IMG/VR virus record: IMGVR_UViG_3300015374_000083
Location: 1-20,273 of that record
Origin: a virus
Direction: 5' to 3' (one strand)
DNA length: 20,273 bases
The notes below the pieces were generated by a model. That model worked only from the letters and a program-made list of their open reading frames with translations, was not told the origin of the DNA and did not search any database. Positions 1,790 to 20,273 of this stretch are shown in pieces (the first letter of the stretch is position 1; the number at the start of each line of letters is the position of its first letter). The position numbers and the translations under genes were made by a program.

Positions 1790-2444
1790 TGTGATCTTCA
1801 CCCTCAAGGACGAGGAGGTCCGCAAGGCCCTGGCCGAAATGCCGAAGGCCTTCAACGCGGCCCTCAACCGGGCGGCGCGGGGGATCTCCGGGGCCTTCGG
1901 GCGGAAGTTCACCTCCGAGCGGCTTTCGGTCCTCAAGATCCGCAGGAAAGCGGGGAAGAGCTCGGGCGGCGCCGCCACGCCGTTCCTGCCGGCGAAGATG
2001 CGGGCGGCCGGCTTCCGGGCCCGGCTCGACGGCCTGGGGGCGATCAACGGGAAGCGGCTCCGGATCGGCACCCGTTCGCCGATCCTCTTCGCGCACGAGA
2101 CCGGGGCGGTCATCCGCGCGCGTGGCGGGGGCATGCTGAAGATCCGCATGCTCCGTAACTGGAAGAGGACCACCGCGGAGGAGCGGAGGCCGGGCCCGGA
2201 AGGGAAGGGTGCCTTCGTCCTCCGGCGCCGCGGCAAGGTCTTTCTGGCGGTGAAGAAGAACGGGAAGCTGATCCTCATCGCCACCCTCGTCCGGCAGGTG
2301 CGGATCCCGAAGGACCTGGGCTTCATCAATTCCTGGTCGAAGTTCGCGCCGGAGATTGTCAGCCGGCTCGACAAGGCTCTGCTCTCGACCATGAAGCGCC
2401 TGGGCCGGGGCGGCGATGCCGCGGACGAGGTGGAGTCCGGATGA
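1776..2444 (+). CDS. Putative tail completion/neck protein (gpZ or HK97 gp10-like)
   Basis: This 222-residue protein is strongly basic. The N-terminal third is helical (E-V-R-K-A-L-A-E-M-P-K-A-F-N-A-A-L-N-R-A-A-R), the usual opening of minor tail/neck proteins of the lambda gpZ and HK97 gp10 groups, which complete the head end of the tail. Lys/Arg-rich stretches follow, with beta strands such as K-V-F-L-A-V-K-K-N-G-K-L-I-L-I-A near residues 150-165. The ATG at 1776 overlaps the previous gene by 14 bases; an in-frame GTG at 1791, just after that gene's stop, is an alternative start. The end overlaps the next gene by the four bases ATGA. Position between connector and terminator supports the call, but the exact family is uncertain. 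Confidence 0.6.
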   Translation: MPSPDVIFTLKDEEVRKALAEMPKAFNAALNRAARGISGAFGRKFTSERLSVLKIRRKAGKSSGGAATPFLPAKMRAAGFRARLDGLGAINGKRLRIGTRSPILFAHETGAVIRARGGGMLKIRMLRNWKRTTAEERRPGPEGKGAFVLRRRGKVFLAVKKNGKLILIATLVRQVRIPKDLGFINSWSKFAPEIVSRLDKALLSTMKRLGRGGDAADEVESG

Positions 2445-2926
2445 TGGCTGACCAGCACTCCGAGGTCATCGTCGCCGCGATCCTGACCGCGCTCGAGGGG
2501 ATCGACGCGGACGATGGCTACCGCACGACGCCGGCGATCGTCCAGCGTTACAGCCGTTCCGTCATGGACAGGACCGAGCGGCCCTGCCTGACCGTCATGC
2601 GCGCCGGCGAGGTGAAGGCGCCGCGGGGCACCGGCGAAGAGGACAGCGTCAACTGCGACCTGTCGATCGAGATCCTCGGGACCATTGCCGAGATCGAGGA
2701 CGAGAGCGAGCTCCCCGCGGACCGCGCGGCCGCCGACCTCCAGGACGACGTGGAGATGGCGCTCCAGAAGATGGACTGGGACTCGCTCCAGGTCCTCGAG
2801 GAGCCCCGTACGATCACCGAACCATTCGAGCCCGAAGACCCTGAGGACGGCTTCATCATGAGCCTGACCGTCCGCTACGCGCACAAGATCGGGGATTCGA
2901 CGGTGCCCCTGGCGCCCGAGCCCTAA
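2441..2926 (+). CDS. Putative tail terminator protein (gpU-like)
   Basis: This 161-residue acidic protein has a helical N-terminus (S-E-V-I-V-A-A-I-L-T-A-L-E), a central beta strand region (C-D-L-S-I-E-I-L-G-T), a second helix (A-A-D-L-Q-D-D-V-E-M-A-L-Q-K-M) and a last strand (G-F-I-M-S-L-T-V-R-Y-A). This helix-strand-helix-strand order is that of tail terminators such as lambda gpU, which form a ring capping the finished tail tube. The start is the ATGA overlap with the gene before, and the gene sits directly upstream of the tube gene, where terminators are normally found. It ends in TAA, which shows that TAA works as a stop in this genome. Identification rests on layout and secondary-structure pattern. 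Confidence 0.65.
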   Translation: MMADQHSEVIVAAILTALEGIDADDGYRTTPAIVQRYSRSVMDRTERPCLTVMRAGEVKAPRGTGEEDSVNCDLSIEILGTIAEIEDESELPADRAAADLQDDVEMALQKMDWDSLQVLEEPRTITEPFEPEDPEDGFIMSLTVRYAHKIGDSTVPLAPEP

Positions 2927-2938
2927 GGAGACCTGACC

Positions 2939-4096
2939 GTGAGAGACCGAAATCAGCTGGCCTGCAAGGTGGAGACGACGCCCGGCACCGTGGTGAGTCT
3001 CGCGGCGACGGACGTCCGCGTGCGGATCCGGAACGGCGACCTCCCCGAGTGCGTGGTGGAGCCGGTGGAGACCCAGGAGATTCAGGACACCTCCTCCTCG
3101 AGGCCGGTCATGACCGGCCGGCGCGAGTTCCGCGCGGGGGCCTCCTGGATCGTGCGGCCGCACACGACCCCCCTGACGCAGATACCCGTATGGGCCCGGC
3201 TCGTCGAAGCGGGCATGCTGAAGGTGTCCTCGCTCAAATCGATCGCGATCACCAGCGTGGTGGGCACCTTCACCGACGGGGAGACGATCACCGGCGGGAC
3301 CTCCGCGGCGACCGGATTGGTCTTCCGGAACCAGAACCTGGAGGCCGGCAAGCTCTCCTATGTGCCCGTCACCGGCGCCCTGGTCTCGGGCGAGACGATC
3401 ACCGGCGGGACCTCCGCGGCGACGGCCACCACCAGCGGCACCCCCCAGGACAACGGGCAGAAGATCCAGCCGGTGGACTCCTCCTTCGGCGGGAGCGAGA
3501 CCCTGCACCACCTCACGGTGGAGTTCCTCCGGGACGGCGTCTTCTGGCGCGGCCGCGGCTGCCTGGGCGAATTCTCCATGGAGTTCCGGGCCAACCAGCA
3601 CGCGATCGCGCGCTCCCGGCTCCTCGGCGCCTACGACACCCACGGCGACAAAGTGCTCTTCAGCGGGACCGACGTCTATCCCCAGGGAACCAACGCCCCG
3701 CCGCGATTCGTCGCCGCGGCGCTCAAGCTCGGGTCCTACAGCCCCACGGACATCGTCGACTTCACGCTCAACTTCCCGCTGAACCTCGAGCTCCGGGAAG
3801 ACGCCAACGACGCCGGCGGGATCCTCTATGCGGACTACGATCGCCGCGCGACGCCGCCGCTGGTCAACTTCGAGCCGGCGCTGGTAAAAATCGCGACCTT
3901 CGACTTCTACTCGGCCTACAAGGACGGCAGCACGTTTGCCATGACCTGGAAGCTGGGCTCGAACTTCGACTTCTTCGCCGACGAGTGCCAGTTCGTGAAC
4001 CTGGGCGTCGGGAGCCGGCGCGAGCTCGCGACGGTGCCCCTCCAGGTCCGGCTCTGCGGGAAGACGAATAACGAGCTCCAGATCTGGTGCCACTGA
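2939..4096 (+). CDS. Major tail tube protein with an internal repeat insertion
   Basis: This 385-residue beta-rich protein starts with a GTG 7-8 bases after a good AAGGAG site. It lies between the terminator and the tail assembly chaperones, the fixed place of the tube subunit. The N-terminal R-N-Q-L-A-C-K-V-E-T-T-P-G-T and E-P-V-E-T-Q...G-R-R-E-F-R segments are typical of tube proteins of this group, which stack as hexamer rings around the tape measure. Residues about 100-170 look inserted: they hold two copies of an 11-residue motif E-T-I-T-G-G-T-S-A-A-T at residues 115-125 and 152-162, of a kind often seen in surface-exposed tail proteins. The rest, with W-K-L-G-S-N-F-D-F and V-P-L-Q-V-R-L, continues the tube fold. 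The insertion probably projects from the tail surface. Length exceeds simple tube proteins because of it. Confidence 0.75.
   Translation: MRDRNQLACKVETTPGTVVSLAATDVRVRIRNGDLPECVVEPVETQEIQDTSSSRPVMTGRREFRAGASWIVRPHTTPLTQIPVWARLVEAGMLKVSSLKSIAITSVVGTFTDGETITGGTSAATGLVFRNQNLEAGKLSYVPVTGALVSGETITGGTSAATATTSGTPQDNGQKIQPVDSSFGGSETLHHLTVEFLRDGVFWRGRGCLGEFSMEFRANQHAIARSRLLGAYDTHGDKVLFSGTDVYPQGTNAPPRFVAAALKLGSYSPTDIVDFTLNFPLNLELREDANDAGGILYADYDRRATPPLVNFEPALVKIATFDFYSAYKDGSTFAMTWKLGSNFDFFADECQFVNLGVGSRRELATVPLQVRLCGKTNNELQIWCH
3281..3423 (+). repeat. In-frame 32-bp direct repeat, period 111 bp
   Basis: Bases 3281-3312 and 3392-3423 are identical over 32 bp. The period of 111 bp is exactly 37 codons, so both copies encode E-T-I-T-G-G-T-S-A-A-T in the tail tube protein. 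Identity at the DNA level, including third codon positions, points to a recent duplication or gene conversion, or to ongoing recombination that could change repeat number. Confidence 0.9.
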
Positions 4097-4104
4097 TCGG
4101 TTGA

Positions 4105-4124
4105 GCCGCGCGCGGCCGCGCGGC
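4105..4124 (+). promoter_or_regulatory. Strong GC hairpin between tube and chaperone genes
   Basis: A perfect 8-bp stem (4105-4112 with 4117-4124) of only G and C closes on a 4-base CGGC loop in the 44-base gap after the tail tube gene. A purine-rich tract with the ribosome site GGGAGG follows instead of a T run, so it is not a standard terminator. It could stabilise the 3' end of the tube message or lower translation of the next gene. Confidence 0.55.
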
Positions 4125-4140
4125 GCGGAAGGGAGGGAAA

Positions 4141-4530
4141 TTGATCACGGTTCACCGTACGGGGAAAGTTGTGAGGATCCCGCTCCGGAGCGAGCGGGAG
4201 AAGCCACCGGAGGAGCAGACATCCCTCCTCGTCAGGGTCCTGGACTTCGACGATTACCGCCGCGTGATCCAGGCGGCCGGCAACATCACCACCCACTATG
4301 AGCACAGCCTGGAGACGATCCGGAAGGTCCTGGGCCTGTCGCTGGTCGGGGTCGAGAACCTCAAGATCGCGGACGATAACGGGGAGGTGAAGGAGTTCGT
4401 GCTCGAGCGCGCCGGCAGCGAGATCACCAAGGCCAGCATGTCCGTCCTCGCCCCCTGGGTCGACGAGATCCTGGATTCGATCACCAAGGCCTTCACCTTC
4501 GGATTGACCGATGCAAAAAACTCGCGATAG
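4141..4530 (+). CDS. Tail assembly chaperone G-like (unshifted product)
   Basis: This 129-residue protein starts at a TTG with a strong GGGAGG site upstream; no better start exists. It lies between tube and tape measure genes, where lambda gene G lies, and its size is close to the 140 residues of lambda gpG. The middle is helical and acidic (Y-E-H-S-L-E-T-I-R-K-V-L-G-L-S-L). The last codons are GCA AAA AAC TCG CGA TAG, carrying a canonical -1 slippery heptamer just before the stop. Most ribosomes should stop here to make G; a minority shift to make GT. In lambda, G and GT coat the tape measure and recruit tube subunits, and neither remains in the virion. The family is assigned from position and the frameshift signal rather than sequence similarity. 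Confidence 0.88.
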   Translation: MITVHRTGKVVRIPLRSEREKPPEEQTSLLVRVLDFDDYRRVIQAAGNITTHYEHSLETIRKVLGLSLVGVENLKIADDNGEVKEFVLERAGSEITKASMSVLAPWVDEILDSITKAFTFGLTDAKNSR

Positions 4531-4907
4531 CCATCGCCTATCGGTTCGGGCGATGGCGGGGGCAGGCGGGCCAGGTCGGTTGTCCCTTCTGCCGGCCGGA
4601 GGACCTCGATGAGGAGGAGAAGGAAGAGGGCCGTTGCCCGCTCTGTAACGGCGCGGTGGACTTCGAGTGCAGCGGGAACGCCGATCCCGCGGCCTTCATG
4701 GACACCGACGATCCGGGGGCCTACTTCGAGCTGGCCAAGCTGGTGCTCCTCTCGAGGGAGCGCCAGTGGACGCCGGAGGAGTACTTGGCTCAGCCAGCGG
4801 TCTTCATTCAGGCCTTCGAGGCGAGCGTGGCGGTGATCTCGCGCTATATCGAGGAGGACCGCGAGCGGCGGAGGGCGCGGCTTCAGGAGGAGATGAAGAG
4901 GAACTAA
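4141..4907 (+). CDS. Tail assembly chaperone GT-like, made by -1 frameshift
   Basis: A -1 shift at 4515-4521 joins the first 127 codons of the G-like gene to the overlapping frame from 4521 to the TAA at 4905-4907, giving a 255-residue fusion (lambda gpGT is 279). The T part starts L-A-I-A-I-A-Y-R-F-G and holds two cysteine pairs, C148/C151 and C166/C169, spaced as CxxC-x14-CxxC, plus C177; this looks like a zinc ribbon. The rest is helical, ending in a highly charged Arg/Glu tail. Known T domains bind tube subunits while the G domain binds the tape measure. The T frame has no good start of its own: the first plausible one is a GTG at 4656 without a ribosome site. The tape measure ATG follows after four bases. 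The zinc role is inference. Confidence 0.88.
4515..4557 (+). promoter_or_regulatory. -1 programmed ribosomal frameshift signal
   Basis: The heptamer A AAA AAC occupies 4515-4521, in the correct phase relative to the G-like frame (GCA AAA AAC). After an 8-base spacer that contains most of the zero-frame TAG (4528-4530), a perfect 9-bp stem forms between 4530-4538 and 4549-4557, with a 10-base loop. Slippery site, spacer length and stem all fit the established requirements for -1 frameshifting, and the -1 frame is then open for 128 codons up to the tape measure gene. Confidence 0.92.
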
Positions 4908-4911
4908 TCGG

Positions 4912-6825
4912 ATGGCCGACACCAGCCGCACCATGGAAGCGGTCCTGGCCTTCCGGGACCAGCTCACCGACGGTCTCAAGAAGGCCGAGAGCTCCTTCGC
5001 TGCCTTCGGCAAGAAGGCAGGCCAGGCGATCAATGAGCTCCCCAAGCACATCTTCAGCCTGAAGACGGCGATCGCCGGCCTGGTCGGGGCTCTTGCGGTG
5101 CGGGAGATCGAGCAGTTCGTGGAGCGGGTCGGGAAGTACGGGGACAGCCTCAACAAGCTCAACCAGAAGACCGGCCTCACCGTCGAGTTCCTCTCGAAGC
5201 TCAAGTACGCCGGCGAGCAGAGCGGTCTCGGCCTCGAGGAGGCCGCGAAGGGGATCCTGAACTTCCAGAAGCTCCTCTTCGACTTCCGCCGCGGCGGAGA
5301 CGAGGCGGTCGAGACCTTCAGCATGCTCGGCGCCGAGTTCCTGGACGCGGCGCGGGGCGCCACCACCGCCGAAGACGCCATGCCGGCCCTGATCGAGGCC
5401 TTCTCCAACCTCACGAACTCGGAAGAGCGCGTCGTGGTGGCCTCGAAGCTCTTCAACAAAGCGGGCAAGGAGTGGCTCCCGCTTCTCTCCGAGGGCGGGA
5501 AGGGGTTCAGGGAACTGTCGGCCGAGGCCGAGCGCCTGGGCCTCGTCCTCACCAAGGCTCAAGCGACCGCCGGCACCGACTTCGTCGACGCCATTGAGCG
5601 GCTGAAGAAGTCGCTCTTCGGGCTCGGGGTACAGGCGATCACACCGCTCCTACCCACCTTCACCGAGTTTCTCGACCGGATGACGAAGCTGGTCGTGGAC
5701 AACCAGCCCAAGATCCTGACGTTCTTCGCCGACCTCCTCGAGGCGGCGGAGGGCGCGCTCCCGAAAATCCAGAAATGGTTCGAAGGAATCGGTGAATCGC
5801 TGAAGGGGATCCTCGGGCCTCTGCTGACCCTCAGGGAGGAATGGGTCAAGATCCAACTGGGAGCGGCGGAGGCCCGGTTGAAGGACGTACTGACCCCGGG
5901 CAGCGCCACCAACTGGAAGGACTCAAGGACTGGCACCCTGGAGGAGATCAAGGCAGCGCGCAAGGCAAGGGACGATCTGGTCCGCGAGTACGACGCGCTC
6001 CTCGCCGTGAGGGCGGCCATCGAATCTGGGAGGGTCCCAGTCGGGCAAGGCGGTAGCGGCCTTCTCGGTCAGACGGTGAGAGACCTGCGCGAACGCGCCG
6101 CCCAGATCCAGGCCGGACGCCGGATCGGCCCGCCCGCTATCGAGAACGTCGATACCGGCGGACGGATCGGCCCGCCTTCCATTGACGAGGCCCACGCCGC
6201 CCAGGTTCAGTGGGCGCACGTTCCAAACGCCCTCGATGCCACGGCGGAGGCACTCGAAAAACTGAGGCTCCGGTGGGAGGACTCCTTCAGCCAGTTCCGC
6301 GACTCGGTGCTCGCGGTGGGCAACGCGCTCGAGGACAACCTCTCCAGCTCCCTGGCCGACGTGATCACCGGCACCAAGAACCTCAAGGAGGCCTCGAAGG
6401 AGCTCGCCAAGAGCATGCTCAACGACCTGGCGAAGATCATCGCCAGGCTACTGGTCATGCGGGCACTCGGCGGAATCTCCAGCCTCTTCAAAAGCTCAAC
6501 GATCGGACCTCCGGCCATTGACGAGTTCGGACAACAGGTGCCTAAACGCGCCATCGGCACGCCCAGCACGCACGGTCCCACCATCGCCGGCGAGGCAGGC
6601 GATGAGGCCATCATTCCGCTTCCAGGGAACCGCCGCGTGCCGGTCCAGCTCCTGGGCGGCGGCGGCGGAGTGGTGATCGTCAACAACTACAACGTCACCG
6701 CCCTGGACGTGAAGAGCTTCGACGAGAAGCTCAAGGCCGGCGTCCAGCGAAACGGCGACTTCGTCGCCCAGGTCGCGGCCCGCGGGTTCCAGAATCGGCC
6801 GGACGTGAGGCGGAGGTACTCGTGA
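4912..6825 (+). CDS. Tape measure protein
   Basis: This 637-residue, largely helical protein sets tail length and is later ejected into the cell. The N-terminal region (residues 1-40) is an amphipathic coil with spaced Lys and Glu. A hydrophobic stretch near 46-63 (F-S-L-K-T-A-I-A-G-L-V-G-A-L-A-V) and another near 503-523 could enter a membrane. The C-terminal G-E-A-G-D-E-A-I-I-P-L near residues 563-573 resembles the conserved GEAGPEAIxPL box of lambda-type tape measures. Residues 405-411, 419-425 and 531-537 carry three copies of I-G-P-P-(A/S)-I-(D/E). At about 0.15 nm per residue the expected tail is near 95 nm, an estimate from the family rule. The ATG follows the GT stop by four bases, and the end overlaps the next gene by four. 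Confidence 0.93.
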   Translation: MADTSRTMEAVLAFRDQLTDGLKKAESSFAAFGKKAGQAINELPKHIFSLKTAIAGLVGALAVREIEQFVERVGKYGDSLNKLNQKTGLTVEFLSKLKYAGEQSGLGLEEAAKGILNFQKLLFDFRRGGDEAVETFSMLGAEFLDAARGATTAEDAMPALIEAFSNLTNSEERVVVASKLFNKAGKEWLPLLSEGGKGFRELSAEAERLGLVLTKAQATAGTDFVDAIERLKKSLFGLGVQAITPLLPTFTEFLDRMTKLVVDNQPKILTFFADLLEAAEGALPKIQKWFEGIGESLKGILGPLLTLREEWVKIQLGAAEARLKDVLTPGSATNWKDSRTGTLEEIKAARKARDDLVREYDALLAVRAAIESGRVPVGQGGSGLLGQTVRDLRERAAQIQAGRRIGPPAIENVDTGGRIGPPSIDEAHAAQVQWAHVPNALDATAEALEKLRLRWEDSFSQFRDSVLAVGNALEDNLSSSLADVITGTKNLKEASKELAKSMLNDLAKIIARLLVMRALGGISSLFKSSTIGPPAIDEFGQQVPKRAIGTPSTHGPTIAGEAGDEAIIPLPGNRRVPVQLLGGGGGVVIVNNYNVTALDVKSFDEKLKAGVQRNGDFVAQVAARGFQNRPDVRRRYS

Positions 6826-7508
6826 GCATCCTCGAATTCGCACCTCCGCGGAACCCGAGTTTCCCCCTTTCGGTCCAGAACGAATGGCCGACGGACGAGA
6901 CCGCGGCGATCAAGCCCTACGTGCAGGTCCTCCCCCGGACCATACGGCCCGTCCGGACCGTGTCCGCGCAGTGGACGGGGCTCAGCCGGGAGCAGCTCGA
7001 CTACTTCGAGAGCTTCTTCCACGAGGTGAAAGGCGGCGCGGGGATCTTCACCTGGAGAAATCTGGACCCCACCTTCAATCCCCTCCACCGCGGGCCCGAC
7101 CTCGCCCAGGTCGCCGCCGGCGGCGCCCCCGGTGCACGGGACTACAGCGTCCTTTACACCTGGTATGACAACCTCAGCGGGCAGGAGACGAAGCCGTCGC
7201 CGGCGTCCTCGATTTCGGTCCTGGACGGGAACGTGATCACGGTGGCGGTGCCGGTCTTCCCCGCCGGCGTCCCGGCAATCCGGGTCTATGCCTCCGAGAC
7301 TCCCGGGACCGAGGTCCTGCAGGCCTTCGCCACGGAGAGGACCTGGATCGAGCCCACCACCGGGCTCCTCACCGGCACCTCGAGTCCGCCGGCGACAAAC
7401 ACGCTGAAGCCCCTTCTCAAGTGGCGTCTGACCGGGCCCTATCGGCCGGAGAGGCGGGGGGCCAACCGCTATGACCTCGCGCTCGAGCTCATGGAGCAGC
7501 AGGTCTGA
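6822..7508 (+). CDS. gpM-like minor/distal tail protein with inserted beta domain
   Basis: The 228 residues can be read as a lambda gpM-type protein (109 residues) split by an insertion. Residues 1-88 hold a strand-rich start and S-R-E-Q-L-D-Y-F-E-S-F-F-H-E-V-K-G-G-A-G-I-F-T-W, like the leu/phe-rich helix and GGWKSFLW of gpM. The C-terminus L-L-K-W-R-L-T-G...Y-D-L-A-L-E-L-M-E-Q-Q-V resembles the closing strands of gpM. Residues about 90-192 instead form an Ig- or fibronectin-like stretch (Y-S-V-L-Y-T-W-Y-D-N, V-I-T-V-A-V-P-V-F-P-A-G-V-P-A-I-R-V-Y-A). gpM-type proteins form the ring between tube and tip; DUF2460 proteins of gene transfer agents are related in role. The GTG start overlaps the tape measure stop as GTGA. 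The family call is good; the insertion boundaries are approximate. Confidence 0.75.
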   Translation: MSILEFAPPRNPSFPLSVQNEWPTDETAAIKPYVQVLPRTIRPVRTVSAQWTGLSREQLDYFESFFHEVKGGAGIFTWRNLDPTFNPLHRGPDLAQVAAGGAPGARDYSVLYTWYDNLSGQETKPSPASSISVLDGNVITVAVPVFPAGVPAIRVYASETPGTEVLQAFATERTWIEPTTGLLTGTSSPPATNTLKPLLKWRLTGPYRPERRGANRYDLALELMEQQV

Positions 7509-8836
7509 TGGCGTTCACCCTCTCCGACTTCCTCCGCACCCGGATCCACGCGCTGCGACAGCCCGCCCCGCTCCTCCAGTTCTACGAGGTCTCGCTGCCC
7601 GATGGGACTTACTTCCGGGCGGTGGATTTCGTGGACCCGAAGGCCGGCGGCTCCCTCCCGGACCGGATCCCCTTCGCCGGCGAGGAGTTCATCGCCATGC
7701 CGATCACCCGGGGCGAGGTGCAGGAGGCCTCGGAGGGCGGGAACTTCCAGCTCCCGGTGACGATTGCGGATCCGCTCCACCAGGTAGCCTTCTACGTCCG
7801 GCAGTTCCTGGGGCTCCGCGGCCAGAGCGTGCGCTGGTGGATCGCGGCCCAGGACAACCTGGAGAACCCCGCCGACGCCCTCTCCGACATCTTCGAGGTG
7901 ATCACTTCCGAGATCGGCCAGGGGCCGGACCGGGTGACGCTGATTCTCGGCCACCCGAACCTCTACGAGACCAAGGTCCCGAAGCTCTTCTACAGCCGCT
8001 CGAAGTGCATCAACCCCTACCACGATCGGTTCGTGCCGGGGAGCTGGTGCACCTACCCCTCGAACGAATTCGGGGAGCAGTCCCGGCAGGACCTGGTGCC
8101 GGCCGCCGGCTACGGGATCCAGGCCTGGAAGCACGGCTGGTCGAGCCAGCAGGCGCGGCGGGCGTCGGTCTTCGACAGCGACCGGACGAACGCCGGCGAC
8201 CTGACCATCACCACCACCACCGACCGGATCGCCTGGAAGGCGCGCGAGCGTTACGGCCCGAACTTCTTCCGCGTGCTCGAGCGGGACTTCGACGTCTCGA
8301 CGGTGCTCACGTTGCCGGCGACCTCGCGGGTGGGCTGGATGGCCGGCCTCCTCCTCCAGGACACCGCGGAGGCCATGCCCCCGGTGGCGCCGGGCGAGGA
8401 GCCGCCGATCGAGCCCCTGAGCACCTGGCTCTTCTTCGGCGCTCAGGACAACGGCTCCGGCGGCCGCCGGCTCCTCCTCCGCCGCACCATCGCAAGCGAG
8501 GCGGACCCGGACGATACGGAGGCCTCCACCGACCTCTACCTGCGCCTGGTCCGCGAGGACAACGTGGTGACCTGCTACTCGAAGGCCTCCGAGGACGGCT
8601 CCTGGACCGAGCGCTTCCTCACCACGCTGACCGTGGCGGCCGCCGCGCGGATTGGAGTCGTCGCGGGAAGCGACACGAAGAGTGCCCTCTCCTTCACCGC
8701 GCGTTTCGGCTATCTCCGCTTCGCCGCCGGCGGACTGGCTTCCTGCGCTCGCACCGAGACCGACTGCAGGGCCCACGAGAATCTTCTCCAGTTCAATGGC
8801 TTTCTGGGGATGCCCAGTGACCGCGCTCGATACTGA
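7508..8836 (+). CDS. gpL-like tail tip protein with lectin-like insertion
   Basis: This 442-residue protein follows the M-like gene with a TGATG junction. The first 160 residues resemble the tail-tip hub fold of lambda gpL. Lambda gpL ends in two cysteine pairs that bind an iron-sulfur cluster, the second spaced C-x6-C and followed by an R-x-N...F-G-G-F sequence. Here C167 and C181 form the first pair, C413 and C420 the second, again C-x6-C, followed by R-A-H-E-N...F-N-G-F-L. Between the pairs lie about 230 extra residues. From about 235 to 408 they read like a concanavalin-A-like sandwich of the DUF1349 kind: F-D-V-S-T-V-L-T-L, A-G-L-L-L-Q-D, L-Y-L-R-L-V-R-E-D-N-V-V-T-C-Y-S, R-I-G-V-V-A-G-S-D, A-R-F-G-Y-L-R-F. 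Such domains often bind sugars. Cluster binding and sugar binding are inferences. Confidence 0.78.
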   Translation: MAFTLSDFLRTRIHALRQPAPLLQFYEVSLPDGTYFRAVDFVDPKAGGSLPDRIPFAGEEFIAMPITRGEVQEASEGGNFQLPVTIADPLHQVAFYVRQFLGLRGQSVRWWIAAQDNLENPADALSDIFEVITSEIGQGPDRVTLILGHPNLYETKVPKLFYSRSKCINPYHDRFVPGSWCTYPSNEFGEQSRQDLVPAAGYGIQAWKHGWSSQQARRASVFDSDRTNAGDLTITTTTDRIAWKARERYGPNFFRVLERDFDVSTVLTLPATSRVGWMAGLLLQDTAEAMPPVAPGEEPPIEPLSTWLFFGAQDNGSGGRRLLLRRTIASEADPDDTEASTDLYLRLVREDNVVTCYSKASEDGSWTERFLTTLTVAAAARIGVVAGSDTKSALSFTARFGYLRFAAGGLASCARTETDCRAHENLLQFNGFLGMPSDRARY

Positions 8837-9206
8837 AACGCTCATCGATGGGCTGATTGGAAAGCCCTTCGCCTGGCTCGCCCGGGGGCCGGAAAGTTTC
8901 TACTGCCTCGGGCTCTGGCTCCACCTGGTGGAGGTCCTCCGCGGGATCCGGATCGAAGACCCGTTCATCGAGCCGAACGAGCAACGTCTCAGGGAGTTCT
9001 GGCATCGCTTCCTCCCGGTGGACTTCAAGGAGCTGCGGCCGCTCGACGTCCTCTTCTGGCGCTGGTCGGATCAGACCCACGTGGCCACCGTGGAGAACGA
9101 GCGCTGGGTGGTCTCCGTCTCGCGCGAAGGTGGCGTCCACCGCATGCCGCTCCTCGAGGCGGTCCTGCGGGCGGAGAAGGCCTACCGGCTGAGGGACCTA
9201 TGGTGA
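8817..9206 (+). CDS. NlpC/P60 peptidase-like tail protein (gpK-like)
   Basis: The 129-residue product is a cysteine peptidase of the NlpC/P60 type, which cuts peptidoglycan peptides so the tail can cross the wall. The motif G-K-P-F-A-W-L-A-R-G-P-E-S-F-Y-C-L-G-L (residues 15-33) matches the family's G-x-P-F...G-P-x-x-F-D-C-x-G-L, with C30 as the likely nucleophile. H88 in T-H-V-A-T-V-E-N is the likely catalytic histidine, preceded by the usual R-P-L-D-V-L-F-W. The acidic residue before the cysteine is replaced by Tyr. I chose the GTG at 8817, which has a GGGG site just upstream and overlaps the L-like gene by 20 bases; the frame is open back to 8652 but that part is only the shadow of the previous gene. 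The JAB domain of lambda gpK is absent. Confidence 0.85.
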   Translation: MTALDTETLIDGLIGKPFAWLARGPESFYCLGLWLHLVEVLRGIRIEDPFIEPNEQRLREFWHRFLPVDFKELRPLDVLFWRWSDQTHVATVENERWVVSVSREGGVHRMPLLEAVLRAEKAYRLRDLW

Positions 9207-12200
9207 AGGTGGTCACCATCCGCGACTGCTTCCGCCGGCCGGAGGCCGCCGAGCCCGAGGTCCTCCTCGAGCACCGCCCCGGCATGCGGATCCGCGACTG
9301 CGTCCCGCGGGACTTCAACCTGGAGGGGGGCAACGTGGTCCTCCGCAACGGCCGCTCCCTGAGCGGGGAGGAGATCGAGGCGGTGGAGGTCCTCGACCGT
9401 GACGAGCTCGTCTTCGGGCAGGTGCCGGGGATCGTGGCGGCGATCGTGGGGGCGGTGGTGGGATCGGCGGAACTGTCCGCCGGCGCCGCTTTCGCCGTGG
9501 CCGTGGCCGACTTCATCCTGATGGCGGCGATCTCCGTCGGGATCAGTTACGGCCTGGCGGCGCTGACGGCACCCAAGAGCCGACTCAGCCAGGGGCAGGA
9601 CGACGGCCCCTCGAGGAGCTGGGAGGGGATCCAGGACACTTCCGGATCGGGTCGGCCGATTCCGTTCGTCTACGGGAAGCTCCGGACCGGGGGACAGTTC
9701 CTTCAGAGCTTCGAGCGCGCGATCACCGGGGAGCAGGTGCGGGACGGACTGACCACGCTCCATACGCTCCTGGGGGTCTGCCTGGGGCCGGTGCAGTCGA
9801 TCGGCGACATTGAGATCAACGGGAACAAGCTGGACACCATCCCGGACTGCACCGCTGACGTACGGCTCGGCACCGCGGAGCAGGCAGCCATCAACGGGTT
9901 TTTCGAGATCGAGAAGGAGGTCATTATCCAGCGGCCGATCGCCGCTTCGGACGGGATCGTGAGTTTCTTCACCACCACCGAATGCGAGGCCCTGGAGATC
10001 TTCTTCCGGTTCCCCAATGGGCTCCTGCGGGCCAGTAAGACCGGGAACCCGCTCCCCCACGACGTGACCTTCCGCTACGAGGTGAAGGAGTTCGGGTTCG
10101 GGTCGAACGTGGTGGTGGCCGTGGGGGAAAAGACGGTCTCCGCGCAGAGCCGGAACCCCATCAAGGGCAGCGTGAAGATCACCACCGACGCCTTCGGCGA
10201 CGAGCTGCGCCTTGGACGCTACGAGATCCGGATTCAGCGCCTGACGCCTGATGACGCCTCCCAGTCGGGATCGCTCACCTACAACAGCGCCTCGGAGGTT
10301 TACGCGATCACCGAGATCACCTACGAATCGCAGGCGCATCCCGGCCTGGCCATGGTGGGGCTGAAGCAGGTGCCCTCCGCGCAGCTCAATACGCAGGTCC
10401 CGACGAGCTACACTTTCCTCGTCGAAGGCTTCAACGACATCCGCGTCTACACCGATCTCTCCACATACACACGTGGCTACACCCGGAACCCGGCCTGGTG
10501 CGCGGCGCATTTCCTCACGAGCCCCATTCACGGCCTGGGCGACAAGTACACCTGGGACAATATCGACCTGGCCGCCTTCCTCGACTGGGCGGCCTACTGT
10601 GACGAGCTCGTGGACGACGGAAAGGGCGGCTTCGAGCCGCGGGCAGTCTTCGACCACTGCTTTGACCAGGTCCAGGCAGCGGACGACGCGGTGAGCATTT
10701 TCGCCGAGGGCTCGGGCGTGCTCCTCATCAAGCGCGCCTCGAGGTGGACGGTGGTGATCGACCGCGCCGACAGCATGATCTGGGTGGGGAACGAGGGGAA
10801 CATCAAGCCGGGCACCTTCCGTTACTCCTTCCTTCCCGCCGCGCAGGTGGCGAACCGCCTGCAGGTTGCCTTCCTGAACGGGGAGGACAACTACCGCCGC
10901 GACACCTACTTCGACGAGCTCCCGGGCCTCGAGCAGGGCGAGCCCTACGTGGAGGCTTCGCGGTCGCTCTGGGGTGTGACCCGGCCGAGTCAGATCTCCC
11001 GGGAGGTCAAGCGCCTCCTCCTCCATAACAAGCTCGACGTCACCCAGGTGGAGCTTGAAAGCGGCCTCGATGCCCTGCGCGTCTCGGCGGGCTCGATCTT
11101 CGGGGTCTCCATCCTCACCGCCGGCGTTGGAATCGCCTCCGGACGGATCCTGGCGGTCGATGAGACCCTGAGCCGGATCCGGCTCGATGCGGAGGTCACC
11201 CTCGAGGACGGGAAGGTCTACGAGATCACCGTGCATCACGCCCAGGGCGACGAGATCTCCACCAAGCGGATCGTCAACGCGCCGGGCACCACCGACGAGG
11301 TCTTCTCCGCGGACATCGCCTGGGCGGGCGCGATCGCCGCCGGCGACACCTACTCCCTGGGCGAGTTCGAGAGCTCGGTGGAGAAGTACCGCTGCGTGGA
11401 GGTCTCGCTCGATAACCAGTTCGGCCGGAAGATCCGGGGCCTCCGCTACGATCCCGCGGTCTACACGGGCGTCCTCGAAGCTCTGCCCACGGTGGTGAAG
11501 AACTCGATCCCGGACCCGCGGCTCTTCCCACCGGACGTGACGGAGCTGGTCCTTACCGAGCGCCTGGACACCAATCCCGACGGCTCTCTGGTGGACGTGA
11601 TCGATGTCGACTGGACGGCGCCCGTGAGCGCGATCCTGGACCACTTCGAGGTGTGGGTCCGCCTCGAGGACGCGCTCAATTTCAGCCTGGCCGGCCTGGC
11701 TCTGACCGGCCACTTCACCGTGCGCAGCGTCCTCACGCCCGGCTTCACCTACGAGATCTCGGTGGTGCCGGTCTCGACGAACGGGGTCCGGAAGCGGCCC
11801 GACCTTGCCACCCTGGCGAGCCTGACCACCTCCTCGGTGACGATCCAGCCGCCCGACCCCACCAACCTCCGGGCGACGATCACCGACGGGACCCTGGTGG
11901 CCACGGTAGACGAGATCCCGCCGAGCCAGCTCGGTCCCGGGGGCTATTACGAGTGGCGCCGCGGGAGCGGGTGGAACCAATCCCTCCTCATCGAGAAGAC
12001 CGCGAAGAACCGCCTCGAGCTCAAGAGCTACGCCCGGGGGTCCGCCACACTCCTGGTGAAGGCGGTCAACTCCCTGGGGAACAAGTCGAAGAACGCCGCC
12101 TCCGTCTCGATCACGCTCTACGGCCAGGTGGAGGAGAACATCATCCTCGAGCAGGAGGAGTTCCCCGACTGGCCGGGCCAGAAGATCGGGTTCAATATCG

Positions 12201-12940
12201 AGGACGGCACCTTCAAGCTCTCCCTCCTCCAGCCGGCCACCGCGAACCTCATGCTGCCCCGCCGGCGCCGGAACCGCCGGAGCGCCCGGCGGCTGGGCTT
12301 CGGCGCGCCGCCGCTCTTCCCGCTGATCATCCCGGTCGGGGTCTACACCACGGAGATCATCACCGCCTCGAGCGACGTCCCGGTGCGCGCGCGGCCCGAC
12401 GTCGCGATCGACTGGGAGGCGATCTTCCTGGGACTCGGAACCTTCGACACCGCCACCTTCCCTTTCGACAGCGAGCAGGCCCGGGTGCCCTTCGCCGGCG
12501 ACGAGAATGCCGAGAACCTCTCGCTTCTTATCGAGAGCCGGGTCTCCACCACCGATACCTCGGAGAGCTCCTTCGGTCCCTGGATCGAGCATCGGGACCG
12601 CGGGGAGCTGACCTTCAAGTACATCCAGTTCCGGCTCACCGGCCGGACGATCTCCCAGGCCTACTCGCTCAAGATCGACAGCATGAAGATCTCGATCGAC
12701 CTCCCCGACAAGGTAGTCTCCGGGAGGGTCCCGGTGGCGAGCGCGGTCTCGGTGGACGTCGATTACCCGACGGACTACTTCGTAGCGGTGAAGCGGCTCC
12801 TGGTGAGCCTGATCGGGGGCGCGAACGGCGACTACGTGAAGGTGACCGTTGAGGACGAGACGGGCTTCACCGCGGAGATCCGTGACTCCTCCCACGCCCT
12901 GACCACGGGCACGATCCATTTCGAAGCAAGGGGGTACTGA
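9200..12940 (+). CDS. Fused gpI-gpJ tail tip and host-specificity protein
   Basis: This 1246-residue protein is the central fibre/hub that contacts the receptor. Residues 1-80 are a small beta-grasp-like domain, then a Gly/Ala/Val-rich hydrophobic stretch (about 76-122), then A-P-K-S-R (124-128) and P-F-V-Y-G-K-L-R-T-G-G (155-165). These match the end of lambda gpI (a hydrophobic region, then APKAR and PVLYGEMRVG), normally a separate protein. From about 180 it follows gpJ: A-W-C near 432 with S-P-I-H-G-L-G matching the J NMAWCLWDMLTHPRYGMG region, and F-R-Y-S-F-L at 540 matching FRYSF of J. Two fibronectin-like domains lie near 779-875 and 886-975, an Arg-rich patch (P-R-R-R-R-N-R-R-S-A-R-R) near 1020-1031, and a final beta region with the probable receptor-binding tip. 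The ATG overlaps the K-like gene by seven bases. Confidence 0.92.
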   Translation: MVKVVTIRDCFRRPEAAEPEVLLEHRPGMRIRDCVPRDFNLEGGNVVLRNGRSLSGEEIEAVEVLDRDELVFGQVPGIVAAIVGAVVGSAELSAGAAFAVAVADFILMAAISVGISYGLAALTAPKSRLSQGQDDGPSRSWEGIQDTSGSGRPIPFVYGKLRTGGQFLQSFERAITGEQVRDGLTTLHTLLGVCLGPVQSIGDIEINGNKLDTIPDCTADVRLGTAEQAAINGFFEIEKEVIIQRPIAASDGIVSFFTTTECEALEIFFRFPNGLLRASKTGNPLPHDVTFRYEVKEFGFGSNVVVAVGEKTVSAQSRNPIKGSVKITTDAFGDELRLGRYEIRIQRLTPDDASQSGSLTYNSASEVYAITEITYESQAHPGLAMVGLKQVPSAQLNTQVPTSYTFLVEGFNDIRVYTDLSTYTRGYTRNPAWCAAHFLTSPIHGLGDKYTWDNIDLAAFLDWAAYCDELVDDGKGGFEPRAVFDHCFDQVQAADDAVSIFAEGSGVLLIKRASRWTVVIDRADSMIWVGNEGNIKPGTFRYSFLPAAQVANRLQVAFLNGEDNYRRDTYFDELPGLEQGEPYVEASRSLWGVTRPSQISREVKRLLLHNKLDVTQVELESGLDALRVSAGSIFGVSILTAGVGIASGRILAVDETLSRIRLDAEVTLEDGKVYEITVHHAQGDEISTKRIVNAPGTTDEVFSADIAWAGAIAAGDTYSLGEFESSVEKYRCVEVSLDNQFGRKIRGLRYDPAVYTGVLEALPTVVKNSIPDPRLFPPDVTELVLTERLDTNPDGSLVDVIDVDWTAPVSAILDHFEVWVRLEDALNFSLAGLALTGHFTVRSVLTPGFTYEISVVPVSTNGVRKRPDLATLASLTTSSVTIQPPDPTNLRATITDGTLVATVDEIPPSQLGPGGYYEWRRGSGWNQSLLIEKTAKNRLELKSYARGSATLLVKAVNSLGNKSKNAASVSITLYGQVEENIILEQEEFPDWPGQKIGFNIEDGTFKLSLLQPATANLMLPRRRRNRRSARRLGFGAPPLFPLIIPVGVYTTEIITASSDVPVRARPDVAIDWEAIFLGLGTFDTATFPFDSEQARVPFAGDENAENLSLLIESRVSTTDTSESSFGPWIEHRDRGELTFKYIQFRLTGRTISQAYSLKIDSMKISIDLPDKVVSGRVPVASAVSVDVDYPTDYFVAVKRLLVSLIGGANGDYVKVTVEDETGFTAEIRDSSHALTTGTIHFEARGY

Positions 12941-16270: not shown

Positions 16271-16501
16271 ATGGAGCTCCTCGTCCTGGCGAAGACCGGA
16301 AACGGCCGGATCCCCGGCACCATCATCGACGTCCGCCCGGACGGCTTCGCCTGGGGCCGGCAGGAGGGGCCGCCGATCTTCCGGAGGTTCCGGGTCGCTG
16401 ACGCCTCGGGCCTCGGACCTGGGCAGCTCCGCGCCAGTAAGGTCGATCTCCTGTCCCTTCGCCTCATTCCCGGCGATCTCCCGCTCGAGGAGCTTGGCTG
16501 A
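16271..16501 (+). CDS. Small protein of unknown function before the tailspike
   Basis: This 76-residue frame starts at ATG 16271 and ends in a TGATG junction with the tailspike gene, so translation is likely coupled. The core I-I-D-V-R-P-D-G-F-A-W-G-R-Q-E-G-P-P-I-F-R-R-F-R-V resembles small phage proteins with a V-x-x-R-P-D-G-x-x-W-G box followed by a hydrophobic strand. It is probably a compact beta domain. No catalytic residues, signal or membrane segment can be seen. A head- or tail-accessory role is suggested only by its neighbours. Confidence 0.65.
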   Translation: MELLVLAKTGNGRIPGTIIDVRPDGFAWGRQEGPPIFRRFRVADASGLGPGQLRASKVDLLSLRLIPGDLPLEELG

Positions 16502-18339
16502 TGCCGACCGTCGAAACCAAGACCATCAAACCGGGCGGGGGCGGGGACTACTCTTCGCTTTCGGCCTGGGAAGCCGCGGAACGGGGAAACCTCGTCAGCC
16601 AGGACAAGATCAAGATCGCCGAGTGCTATTCCGGCGGCGACCTGGGCGCTGTGGCCTTCAGCGGCTGGACCACCGACGCCACCCGCTATATCGAGATCAC
16701 CGTCCCCCTCTCCGAACGCCACCAGGGCACCTACAGCACCTCGAAGGCCTACTGCACCTCGGGCTCGGCCATCACTATCAACTCGACCATCGATATTTTT
16801 ATTCGGATCCGCGGCCTCCAGATCGACAACACCTGGAGCAACGCCGGAGCCTACGCGGTCCGCTTCTCGAATAACGGAAGCGGGCGGAAGATCATCGACT
16901 CCTGCCTGATCCGGAAGTCCGGGGCGACGAACGTGGGGTGCATCTTCTTCACCAACGGCACCGGCAACCTGATCAAGAACTGCATCATCCTCCAGCAGGC
17001 CGGCGGCTCCACCACCGCCTGCGTGGGCGTGAGCGGCGGCTCGATCAAGATCTACTACTCGACGATTGTGAACCTCGTCACCAACGCGTTCTGCCTTTCG
17101 GTCAACAGCCCCGCCACCATCACCGAGGACAACAACTTCCTCGGGGAGACCGGGACCGGGACCATTTACCAGGGGACCGCCACCTACACCAAGGGCACTC
17201 ACACCGCCACCACCGACGCCGCGGCGACCACTGCGGGCCTCCGGAATATCGCCTTCAGCACCTCGAACTTCACCAACGTCAGCGCCGGCTCCGAGAACCT
17301 GAAGCTGGTCCTGGGCTCGGCCCTCCTGGGCCAGGCCACCGACCTCTCCGGTGGATCCGGGGAGGAAGCGATCACCACGGACTTCCAGGGAGTGCCGCGC
17401 GACACGATCTGGGACATCGGGGCGCACCAATTTGCCCGCAGGGCCGCTCCGTTGCCCGTGACGGTCCGCCGGGAAAACGACCTTCCCCGGTACCTGGGAC
17501 GTGGGTCCGCCCAGTTCTCGAAACCGCTCGTCATACAGCCTGTAACTCGGCCCGGCGCCGGCCGGTTCGTGGCCCCTCCCCGCAATGATCTGTTGAAGCG
17601 TCTGCGCCGTGGGTCTGTCTCCATTCGGGGACCGCTGCGCATATCGATCGGGCCGGAGCCGGTCGACTGGACCGAGCCCGACCAGGGCTCGCACCCGCGG
17701 ATCTGGCTCAACGCGTCGACGCTGGGGGACTTCCAGGCCAGGATCGCCGGCGGGCACCGGGCGCACTGGGGCGAGCTCCAGCGCCACTGCCGGCTCGTGG
17801 CCGAACCGGCGGCCTATCCAAACAGCTACTTCGAGGGGAAGGAGCCGGAGGAGGTGGCGGTCCTCGCCTTCAGTTACCTCCTCGAGCCGGAGGATCCCCG
17901 GCACGTCGACTACGCAGACCGGGCCGTGGAGATCGCCCTCCACCTCGCGAACCTGCCCCTCGAGGCCGGCCAGGTGGGCCAGTACCGGCTCTTCGCAATG
18001 AGCCTGGTCTACGACTGGGCCTATCCGCGGCTCTCCCTCAGCGACCGGCGGATCCTCCGCGCTCGGATCGCGCTCTACGTCGACAGCTTCCGCACCGCGA
18101 ACGCGGAGGAGCGGCTCTGGGGCGTCTCCCTCCCGAACTGCGCGGCCGCGCTGGTGGGGCTCGCGGCGATCCTCGCCGACGGCTCCCTTGCGGAGAACGC
18201 GCTCTGGAGGACCTGGACCGACGGGCTCTTCGCCGTTTTCGACCTCGGGCCCTACGTCTCCACCACCTTCTTCTCCGCGCTCCGGTTTTTCGGGGAGGCC
18301 GACGGGGGAACGCACCGCGGGGCCGGGCCCTACGGGTAA
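16501..18339 (+). CDS. Tailspike, N-terminal fragment: beta-helix and start of lyase toroid
   Basis: This 612-residue reading frame ends at an in-frame TAA; the same frame then runs on to 20196. Residues 1-318 form a right-handed parallel beta-helix: T-I-K-P-G-G-G-G-D-Y-S-S-L-S-A-W-E-A-A at the start, then many short strands with stacked Asn, Thr and Ile. Residues 319-385 are an Arg-rich linker with a 36-residue repeat. From about 390 the helical toroid of heparinase II/III or alginate-lyase-like enzymes begins: H-P-R-I-W-L-N, A-F-S-Y-L-L, Y-R-L-F-A-M-S-L-V-Y-D-W-A-Y and L-P-N-C-A-A-A-L-V-G-L-A with N546 at the usual position of the substrate-binding Asn. The fragment stops after D-G-G-T-H-R-G-A-G-P-Y-G, inside a conserved-looking toroid motif. 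Such spikes digest surface polysaccharide. Alone, this fragment would lack the rest of the enzyme. Confidence 0.85.
   Translation: MPTVETKTIKPGGGGDYSSLSAWEAAERGNLVSQDKIKIAECYSGGDLGAVAFSGWTTDATRYIEITVPLSERHQGTYSTSKAYCTSGSAITINSTIDIFIRIRGLQIDNTWSNAGAYAVRFSNNGSGRKIIDSCLIRKSGATNVGCIFFTNGTGNLIKNCIILQQAGGSTTACVGVSGGSIKIYYSTIVNLVTNAFCLSVNSPATITEDNNFLGETGTGTIYQGTATYTKGTHTATTDAAATTAGLRNIAFSTSNFTNVSAGSENLKLVLGSALLGQATDLSGGSGEEAITTDFQGVPRDTIWDIGAHQFARRAAPLPVTVRRENDLPRYLGRGSAQFSKPLVIQPVTRPGAGRFVAPPRNDLLKRLRRGSVSIRGPLRISIGPEPVDWTEPDQGSHPRIWLNASTLGDFQARIAGGHRAHWGELQRHCRLVAEPAAYPNSYFEGKEPEEVAVLAFSYLLEPEDPRHVDYADRAVEIALHLANLPLEAGQVGQYRLFAMSLVYDWAYPRLSLSDRRILRARIALYVDSFRTANAEERLWGVSLPNCAAALVGLAAILADGSLAENALWRTWTDGLFAVFDLGPYVSTTFFSALRFFGEADGGTHRGAGPYG
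17476..17643 (+). repeat. Degenerate repeat in the tailspike linker
   Basis: Two 20-residue units, at residues 326-345 and 362-381 and 36 residues apart, share the pattern N-D-L-x-(R/K)-x-L-x-R-G-S-x5-P-L-x-I. The bases are less alike than the residues, so the duplication is old. Both units are Arg-rich and lie between the beta-helix and the lyase-like region. They may be a trimerisation or adaptor segment. Confidence 0.6.
18337..18339 (+). other. In-frame TAA interrupting the tailspike gene
   Basis: Codon 613 of the frame begun at 16501 is TAA. The next 618 codons in the same frame are open and continue the same enzyme fold without a gap. Single-base changes to TAC or TAT would restore Tyr, which fits the surrounding Y-G-(Y)-D-T-E-L-E-E sequence. 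TAA is a normal stop elsewhere in the window (2924-2926 and 4905-4907), so reassignment is unlikely. A nonsense mutation, sequencing or assembly error, or readthrough are the options. Confidence 0.9.
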
Positions 18340-18381
18340 GACACCGAGCTCGAGGAGATCTGCGGCCGCCTGCTCCCCGCG

Positions 18382-20196
18382 GTGGAATCCGCCCTGGGCG
18401 TCCCCTGGCAATCGGACGAGGCCTGGTGGGACGGACTCGCGCACTGGAAGCTCTGGCACTGGCGCGGCGACCGGACCTTCCACCGTCAGGGCGACCACGC
18501 GGCGCCGGCGGCCTACAGCCGGAACACCCAGCTCCACCTCCTTCAGACCGCCTCGAGGCAGGACAACGACTTCGGGAAGGCCTGCATGTGGCTCGTGGAG
18601 GAGATCCAGAACCGCGCCGGCCTCCTGGGCGGCGCCCAGGAGCTCTGGAACGTCCTCTTCCGTGACGTCACCCGGCCGGCGGTGCGGCCGACGGTGGCGG
18701 GCTACGGCGCCGGCGCCGAGCTCCGGCGGTTCACCCGGTCGGGGAAGCTCTGCCTCCGGGACGGGTGGGAGGAGGCCGGCACCAGCGTCACGATCGAGGT
18801 GCCGGAGTATTTCGTCGGGGGCCACGCCCGCCGGCGCGCCGGCCACTTCAACCTCGCCGCCCAGGGGCTGCCTCTCCTCTACGAGAAGGGGCACTTCGAC
18901 CCTGCGCAGGACCTGACCCCGAAGGAAACGGGGAACCCGGACGAGACCGGCCATCGCTACACCTACGCCCAGCGGATCCCCGCCGCGAACGTGCTTCGGA
19001 TCTTCGACACCGACGAACCCACCGACAACCTCCTCGAGAGCTTCCAGCGGACGGTCTTCGCCGCGGACCGCTACGGCGTCCTCTCCGGCGGCTCGGTGGC
19101 GATCTCCAACGACGGCGGGCAGCTCGTCCCCAAGAACACCGATAGTGATCGCCACCAGCCTGCCGACCTCGAGGACCTCCTCGCCGAGCCGAAGTGGCTA
19201 TCGCCGAGCTGGCTCTTCAGCCCGGCGGAGGGGGCGAAGTACTGCCATGCGGTCTTCGACCTGGCGCCCTTCTACTACTCCGCGAAATGCACCAGCTACC
19301 GCCGGCACTTCCTCTGGGTGAAGAGGGGGGCGATCCCCGGCTGGCCCTACCCGGTCCTGCTGGTCTTCGATCAGCCGGTGGTGGTGGTGGACGGCACGGC
19401 GGGGAAGCTCCCCCAGGTCCTCCAGCTCCAGGCGGCCGCCGGCGCCGCGGCGGGGACCGCGGCCGCCTTCCGGCTCGACCGGAGCCCCGGCCGGCTCTTC
19501 GTGAAGGTGCTCTCGCCGGCGACGGTCGAGAAGACCGAGGTCGCCGACTACGAGATCGCCGGCGAGGCCTATGCCGCCACCGCCGTCCAGGCCTTCGACG
19601 ATCCGGCGGGGGTGCGGATCGAGATCAACGCCTCGACTTCCAGCGCCACCCATGAGTTCCTGACGGTGCTCTTCCCCTGCCCGATCGCCACCGCGGCCGC
19701 GCCGGCGGTGAGCCTGGTCTCGGACGCCACCTATATCGGGGCGACGATCGGGGGAATCGAATGCAAGATGACCCGCGCGGACCCCTTCGCCGCGATCGTG
19801 GGGAGTTCGAGCGACGTCACGGCGCCGGCGGCGCCGACGGGCCTCTCCGCCACCGCCCTGGTCGGCGCCGTGGACCTGGACTGGTCGGACAACGGGGAGG
19901 GCGATCTCGACCACTACTCGGTCTACCGCTCGACCGGAGGCCCCTACACGCTCCTCGAGGCCTCGGTGGTGGGGTCGAGCTACCGGGACCGCGCCGTGGT
20001 CCTGGGGACGGCGTACTCGTACAAGGTGACGGCCGTCGACACGTCGGGGAACGAGAGCGCGCAGTCGAGCTCCGCTGGGCCGGTGACGCCGGACCTGGGG
20101 ATCTCCGGCCCGCCGGTCCGGCCGCCCGACCGTTCGCGCCGCCGCGCGATCCACGAGCGACGCCGGCGGGTCTCACCTCGCTACCCGTACCGCTGA
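18382..20196 (+). CDS. Tailspike, C-terminal fragment: lyase sandwich and FN3 domain
   Basis: The frame is open from 18340; the first usable start is the GTG at 18382, which lacks a well-spaced ribosome site (a GAGGAG lies about 25 bases upstream). In numbering from 16501, residues to about 690 finish the helical toroid. From about 700 a large beta-sandwich follows, with G-G-H-A-R-R-R-A-G-H-F-N-L (H775, H782) and G-L-P-L-L-Y-E-K-G, matching the H...GHF and L-x-x-x-G-x-x-L-L pattern of heparinase II/III C-terminal domains. Residues 1102-1195 are a fibronectin type III domain (A-P-A-A-P-T-G-L-S-A, D-L-D-H-Y-S-V-Y-R-S, Y-S-Y-K-V-T-A-V-D-T-S-G-N). The last 27 residues are Arg-rich. Joined with the first fragment, the intact spike would be 1231 residues. 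A separate functional protein is possible but less likely than a broken gene. Confidence 0.8.
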   Translation: MESALGVPWQSDEAWWDGLAHWKLWHWRGDRTFHRQGDHAAPAAYSRNTQLHLLQTASRQDNDFGKACMWLVEEIQNRAGLLGGAQELWNVLFRDVTRPAVRPTVAGYGAGAELRRFTRSGKLCLRDGWEEAGTSVTIEVPEYFVGGHARRRAGHFNLAAQGLPLLYEKGHFDPAQDLTPKETGNPDETGHRYTYAQRIPAANVLRIFDTDEPTDNLLESFQRTVFAADRYGVLSGGSVAISNDGGQLVPKNTDSDRHQPADLEDLLAEPKWLSPSWLFSPAEGAKYCHAVFDLAPFYYSAKCTSYRRHFLWVKRGAIPGWPYPVLLVFDQPVVVVDGTAGKLPQVLQLQAAAGAAAGTAAAFRLDRSPGRLFVKVLSPATVEKTEVADYEIAGEAYAATAVQAFDDPAGVRIEINASTSSATHEFLTVLFPCPIATAAAPAVSLVSDATYIGATIGGIECKMTRADPFAAIVGSSSDVTAPAAPTGLSATALVGAVDLDWSDNGEGDLDHYSVYRSTGGPYTLLEASVVGSSYRDRAVVLGTAYSYKVTAVDTSGNESAQSSSAGPVTPDLGISGPPVRPPDRSRRRAIHERRRRVSPRYPYR

Positions 20197-20260: not shown

Positions 20261-20273
20261 CTACTGGAGGATC

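Follow-up and report, generated by a model that had tools for sequence, protein, structure and literature searches.

Phage depolymerases are described as centred on a parallel beta-helix (PMC13385381), and the phage lyases on record are of the hyaluronate, pectate, alginate and K5 types, with no mention of a toroid fold (PMC5380687). Bacterial heparinase II (HepII; PL21; PDB 2fuq, 3e80, 3e7j) has a helical toroid followed by a beta-sandwich; its catalytic residues are H202, Y257 and H406, and E205 serves as the neutraliser (PMC12088678, PMC10656541), and a Tyr/His/Asn mechanism operates in PL35/PL39/PL15/PL17-type lyases (PMC12088678). In the literature that we searched, with most subscription journals outside its scope, we found no virion protein of a phage described as carrying a toroid-type lyase. 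Beta-helix depolymerases are already known; what is new here is a probable phage spike that carries a lyase module descended from bacterial heparinase II. With moderate confidence, we read it from its sequence as a spike-borne uronate-polysaccharide lyase in which a beta-helix is mainly structural.

In the window, the whole 20,273-nt stretch that was analysed, the spike gene lies downstream of genes for a Mu-like major head protein, a tape measure protein and a lambda-J-like tail tip protein. A sibling contig (IMGVR_UViG_3300000440_000028, here L002; 42,948 bp) continues with integrase, helicase and primase genes, the integrase being downstream of the spike. The source is a temperate tailed phage, Mu-like in its head and lambda-like in its tail tip, and among the matches listed the best INPHARED relatives of its head protein are ~38% identical. 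The gene is called a "tailspike" from its place after the tape measure and tail tip genes; a virion-anchor domain could not be recognised in the protein.

The initial annotation joined positions 16501-20196 into one 1231-residue chain by reading through a stop, and translation bears this out: the frame is continuous apart from one internal stop, the TAA at codon 613. Its start codon shares bases with the stop of the gene before it (TGATG, 16499-16503), and the probability that an open frame of 1231 codons arises by chance at the window's composition is ~8e-13. Third-codon-position GC is 0.90 before the TAA and 0.94 after it, which marks both halves of the gene as coding. The sibling is >99.9% identical to the window (5 differences in 9773 nt) and has an uninterrupted 1231-aa ORF for the spike, which shows that the protein is real and that the TAA is either private to the window copy or an error of assembly. 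This agrees with the earlier view of the stop as foreign to the gene's normal form. Over window positions 68-20273 there are six differences from the sibling, five of which (16581, 18332, 18339, 19411 and 20255) fall after position 16500. Four of the six are inside the spike gene, close to the end of the window contig at 20273, a clustering that is compatible with either a recent variant or an assembly error. The same four differences could be taken to mean that the interrupted copy is a genuine truncated form with its own function, for example in receptor switching, but they sit where assembly errors concentrate, the cut falls inside the toroid, and other genes end normally in TAA, with no suppressor tRNA found; we consider a functional truncated form very improbable. 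Recoding of the TAA is also unlikely, and we rejected it because TAA terminates other window genes and a search for a suppressor found no tRNA gene. Unless it is an assembly error, the TAA in the window copy would cut the chain within the toroid and leave an inactive product.

Profile homology establishes that residues ~395-1095 are related to heparinase II-type lyases over their full length, toroid and sandwich alike (Table 1). A second contig (IMGVR_UViG_3300031576_000042, here L009) encodes a 902-residue protein that is 36% identical to the spike over the whole lyase module. An HMM of 32 rows, drawn from HepII-like proteins of 241 bacterial genomes and aligned without phage rows, matched the spike over residues 397-1092 (E=5.9e-42) and the L009 protein (E=3.2e-27), and none of 500 shuffled sequences matched it. 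One bacterial relative, L022, had come to light through the phage profile and was left out of a further HMM of 30 bacterial relatives, likewise without phage proteins, which still matched the spike at E=3.9e-33. When the two phage proteins were compared with two HepII-type proteins by hhalign, the probability was 99.1 and E=5.4e-19 over 555 columns. The HepB model NF045571 matched the lyase module alone at 27 bits (E=8.8e-7) and its curated cut-off of 600 bits was not reached, making the module homologous to HepB and not an equivalog. In a Pfam search the module had no match, including to PF07940, the family matched by the bacterial relatives L022, L013 and L051, and no Pfam or PHROG family covers it. 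Together these profile matches uphold the proposal of a toroid and beta-sandwich module of heparinase II/III type. The module is nevertheless far from HepII itself, at ~23% identity and fused to a beta-helix and an FN3 domain. In a tree, the spike and L009 proteins form one clade (100/100) outside the bacterial HepII clade, on a long stem of 2.2 changes per column, and the bacterial neighbour placed closest to the pair may be a long-branch artefact.

Table 1. Features of the spike gene and its upstream context in the window, with residues numbered along the 1231-codon frame.
Feature	Position	Strand	Basis
Tape measure protein, upstream context	4912..6825	+	
Tail tip protein J (lambda-J-like), upstream context	9200..12940	+	
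Spike gene, 1231 codons + stop, one in-frame TAA	16501..20196	+	translation of window
Parallel beta-helix-type domain, residues 1-312 (DYSSLSAWE...WDIGAHQF)	16501..17436	+	homologous tandem domains, weak model
Arg-rich linker, residues 313-385	17437..17655	+	
Linker repeat copy 1, NDLPRYLGRGSAQFSKPLVI	17476..17535	+	
Linker repeat copy 2, NDLLKRLRRGSVSIRGPLRI	17584..17643	+	
Helical toroid part of lyase module, residues ~395-735	17683..18705	+	full-length profile match to bacterial HepII-like proteins; L009 relative
H605, invariant in both phage proteins, within DGGTHxGAGPxGYDT	18313..18315	+	
In-frame TAA, codon 613; Tyr in intact sibling and L009; probable equivalent of HepII catalytic Y257	18337..18339	+	
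Antiparallel beta-sandwich part of lyase module, residues ~736-1097	18706..19791	+	HepB model NF045571 match; profile homology
H775, equivalent of HepII catalytic base H406	18823..18825	+	
A829, where HepII and most relatives carry H451	18985..18987	+	
FN3 domain, residues 1106-1192	19816..20076	+	match to solved FN3 3mpc
Arg-rich C-terminal tail, residues 1203-1231	20107..20193	+	

The AF2 model of the lyase module, made from an alignment with few relatives, has a pLDDT of 33, so active-site geometry is not readable from it. Human dermatan sulfate epimerase (6hzn) and PL39, PL35 and PL15 lyases rank first in a Foldseek search with this model, and the glycosaminoglycan and alginate lyases of PL35/PL39/PL15/PL17 (8khv, 6jp4, 3a0o, 4ojz) are among the leading matches. 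Foldseek also weighs sequence and the TM-scores are only ~0.18, and these proteins have no significant direct sequence match to the spike; the ranking leans slightly towards the toroid/beta-sandwich superfamily.

We then compared active-site columns. The column of the HepII base H406 holds His in 31 of the 32 bacterial relatives, and it holds H775 in the spike and a His in L009 too, so the initial annotation was right to single out H775 as a catalytic position. The column of Y257 is also filled in 31 of the 32. Y613 occupies it in the 34-row alignment, in the match displayed for the full profile and in the larger profiles generally, with a three-residue loop insertion, whereas smaller or HepII-only alignments put P610 there. 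Y613 is invariant in both phages when the spike is read from the intact sibling, and it is the codon turned into a stop in the window. The Tyr acid would most likely map to Y613, which gives the "nearby Tyr" of the initial annotation a probable identity in the larger alignment, though not in the smaller ones; a reading with P610 in its place, and hence no catalytic Tyr, did not survive the alignment of the 32 relatives. Two further residues named there as catalytic do not hold up, as N546 is D and H782 is Q in L009 and both are outside the conserved catalytic columns.

Three other HepII residues, H408, D425 and H451, which we take to be zinc ligands, correspond to R777, E795 and A829 in the spike. 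Both phage proteins carry other residues at the H408 and D425 positions; at H451 only the spike does. The region around H202/E205 is not alignable in the phage proteins. These losses, with the neutraliser unplaced and the phage stem so long, would fit a module that is catalytically dead and serves as a carbohydrate-binding adhesin, its cleft holding host polysaccharide without cutting it. However, at 36% identity both phage proteins keep the base His, a Tyr in or close to the catalytic column, H605, and the H/R/N context that is shared with HepII at spike H818, R825 and N830. Catalysis by the module is plausible from these residues, and we regard a purely binding role as rather unlikely.

We hypothesize that the gene product is a virion-associated spike of the temperate phage, in which the N-terminal beta-helix would be mainly a rigid stalk and residues 395-1095 a captured, strongly diverged toroid/beta-sandwich polysaccharide lyase. 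A host surface polysaccharide that contains uronate would be bound in the cleft between toroid and sandwich and cleaved there by beta-elimination, H775 acting as the base and Y613 as the other residue in proton transfer. Cutting this polysaccharide would let the phage reach the cell, and the FN3 domain and basic tail may help with attachment or sugar binding.

As in phage tailspike depolymerases, a likely beta-helix-type domain is present in a probable tail-associated protein. Residues 1-312 are 28% and 26% identical to the two domains that stand in tandem in a 690-residue protein of viral contigs L003/L004, and they have a weak choice-of-anchor Q match. An AF2 model of the domain (pLDDT 43) shows a three-strands-per-coil pattern repeated at residues 91-191, where pLDDT is 50-70, and a fold search with this model gave no match under 1e-3. 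From the tandem homologues and the coils of this weak model, an N-terminal parallel beta-helix is likely on moderate evidence, in line with the initial annotation, which had gone on to suggest two carbohydrate-active modules in one spike. That second suggestion is not supported, since we looked for an enzyme family or signature in the beta-helix and none matched, and its relatives are duplicated domains of an unannotated viral protein. The same findings bear on the possibility that this protein, like an ordinary tailspike, uses its beta-helix as the depolymerase and the toroid module as an accessory. Known phage depolymerases would favour it, as their enzyme core is the beta-helix itself (PMC13385381), but this spike has a separate toroid lyase module behind the beta-helix, and the L009 phage keeps the lyase with no beta-helix at all; we give a beta-helix depolymerase little credence here.

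The remaining parts of the chain are also as first described, and the beta-helix, linker, lyase module, FN3 domain and Arg-rich tail are joined in one protein. The linker holds a 20-residue Arg-rich repeat in two copies, with a score reached by 11 of 2000 shuffles; residues 1106-1192 match the FN3 structure 3mpc at E=2e-8; and the Arg-rich tail closes the chain. A separate Arg-rich insertion, RRRRNRRSARR, near residue 1020 of tail tip protein J (window ~12260-12320) resembles the Arg-rich stretches of the spike, and a relationship between it and the linker repeat was rejected because the similarity is at chance level.

A different location for the protein must also be considered. It could be a cargo (moron) enzyme, secreted by the lysogen or serving it, outside the virion, given that heparinase II relatives are bacterial polysaccharide-use enzymes and that the end of a tail cluster is a usual place for cargo genes too. 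However, no signal peptide is evident in the spike protein, its start overlaps the preceding gene, and the lyase is fused to a beta-helix, FN3 and a basic tail. In addition, the L009 lyase has at its C-terminus a domain that recurs in a small neighbouring protein. A cargo role is in our view doubtful, and we continue to favour a virion-borne lyase.

The L009 contig encodes TerL, portal, major head and minor tail proteins, and its head genes are unrelated to those of the window phage. Its lyase protein has neither N-terminal beta-helix nor FN3 and ends in a different C-terminal domain. The same lyase module in an unrelated phage, on a different architecture, indicates a mobile phage module. We speculate that it may belong to a new depolymerase class, in which a mobile virion toroid/beta-sandwich module uses a His/Tyr pair without the HepII-type H408/D425 and is mounted on different stalks in each phage, a proposal that we hold tentatively, at somewhat short of even odds. 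If this is true, phages also borrow from the bacterial uronate-lyase toolkit, searches for depolymerases should widen beyond beta-helix models, and such spikes would be a source of enzymes for uronate-rich capsules and exopolysaccharides.

Scans of IMG/VR found only the sibling L002 and L009 as carriers of the module; they used short degenerate peptide patterns, so further members may exist. PLSDB gave no plasmid match, and INPHARED held no phage with the lyase module, returning only FN3 matches, chance-level matches and one fecal contig of bacterial origin. The latter (L006; GenBank MT837828.1), found by tblastn and labelled "Bacteriophage sp.", has a full heparinase II gene at 2388-4709 (1471 bits to the HepB model) among ordinary bacterial genes, and is probably a mislabelled gut bacterial contig.

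Several smaller observations were made on these contigs. The C-terminal domain shared by the L009 lyase and the small adjoining protein (4116-4502 and 7317-7703; 36% identity) also occurs weakly in a 595-kb phage (LR756511) and is possibly a common virion attachment domain. A further protein of 613 residues, encoded at 8587-10428 near the L009 lyase gene, combines PKD with a thrombospondin type 3 repeat and a region that may be a beta-helix. In the window itself, a short direct repeat at 3277-3423 (~36 bases, 97%), within the gene at 2939-4096, produces a repeated ETITGGTSAAT motif.
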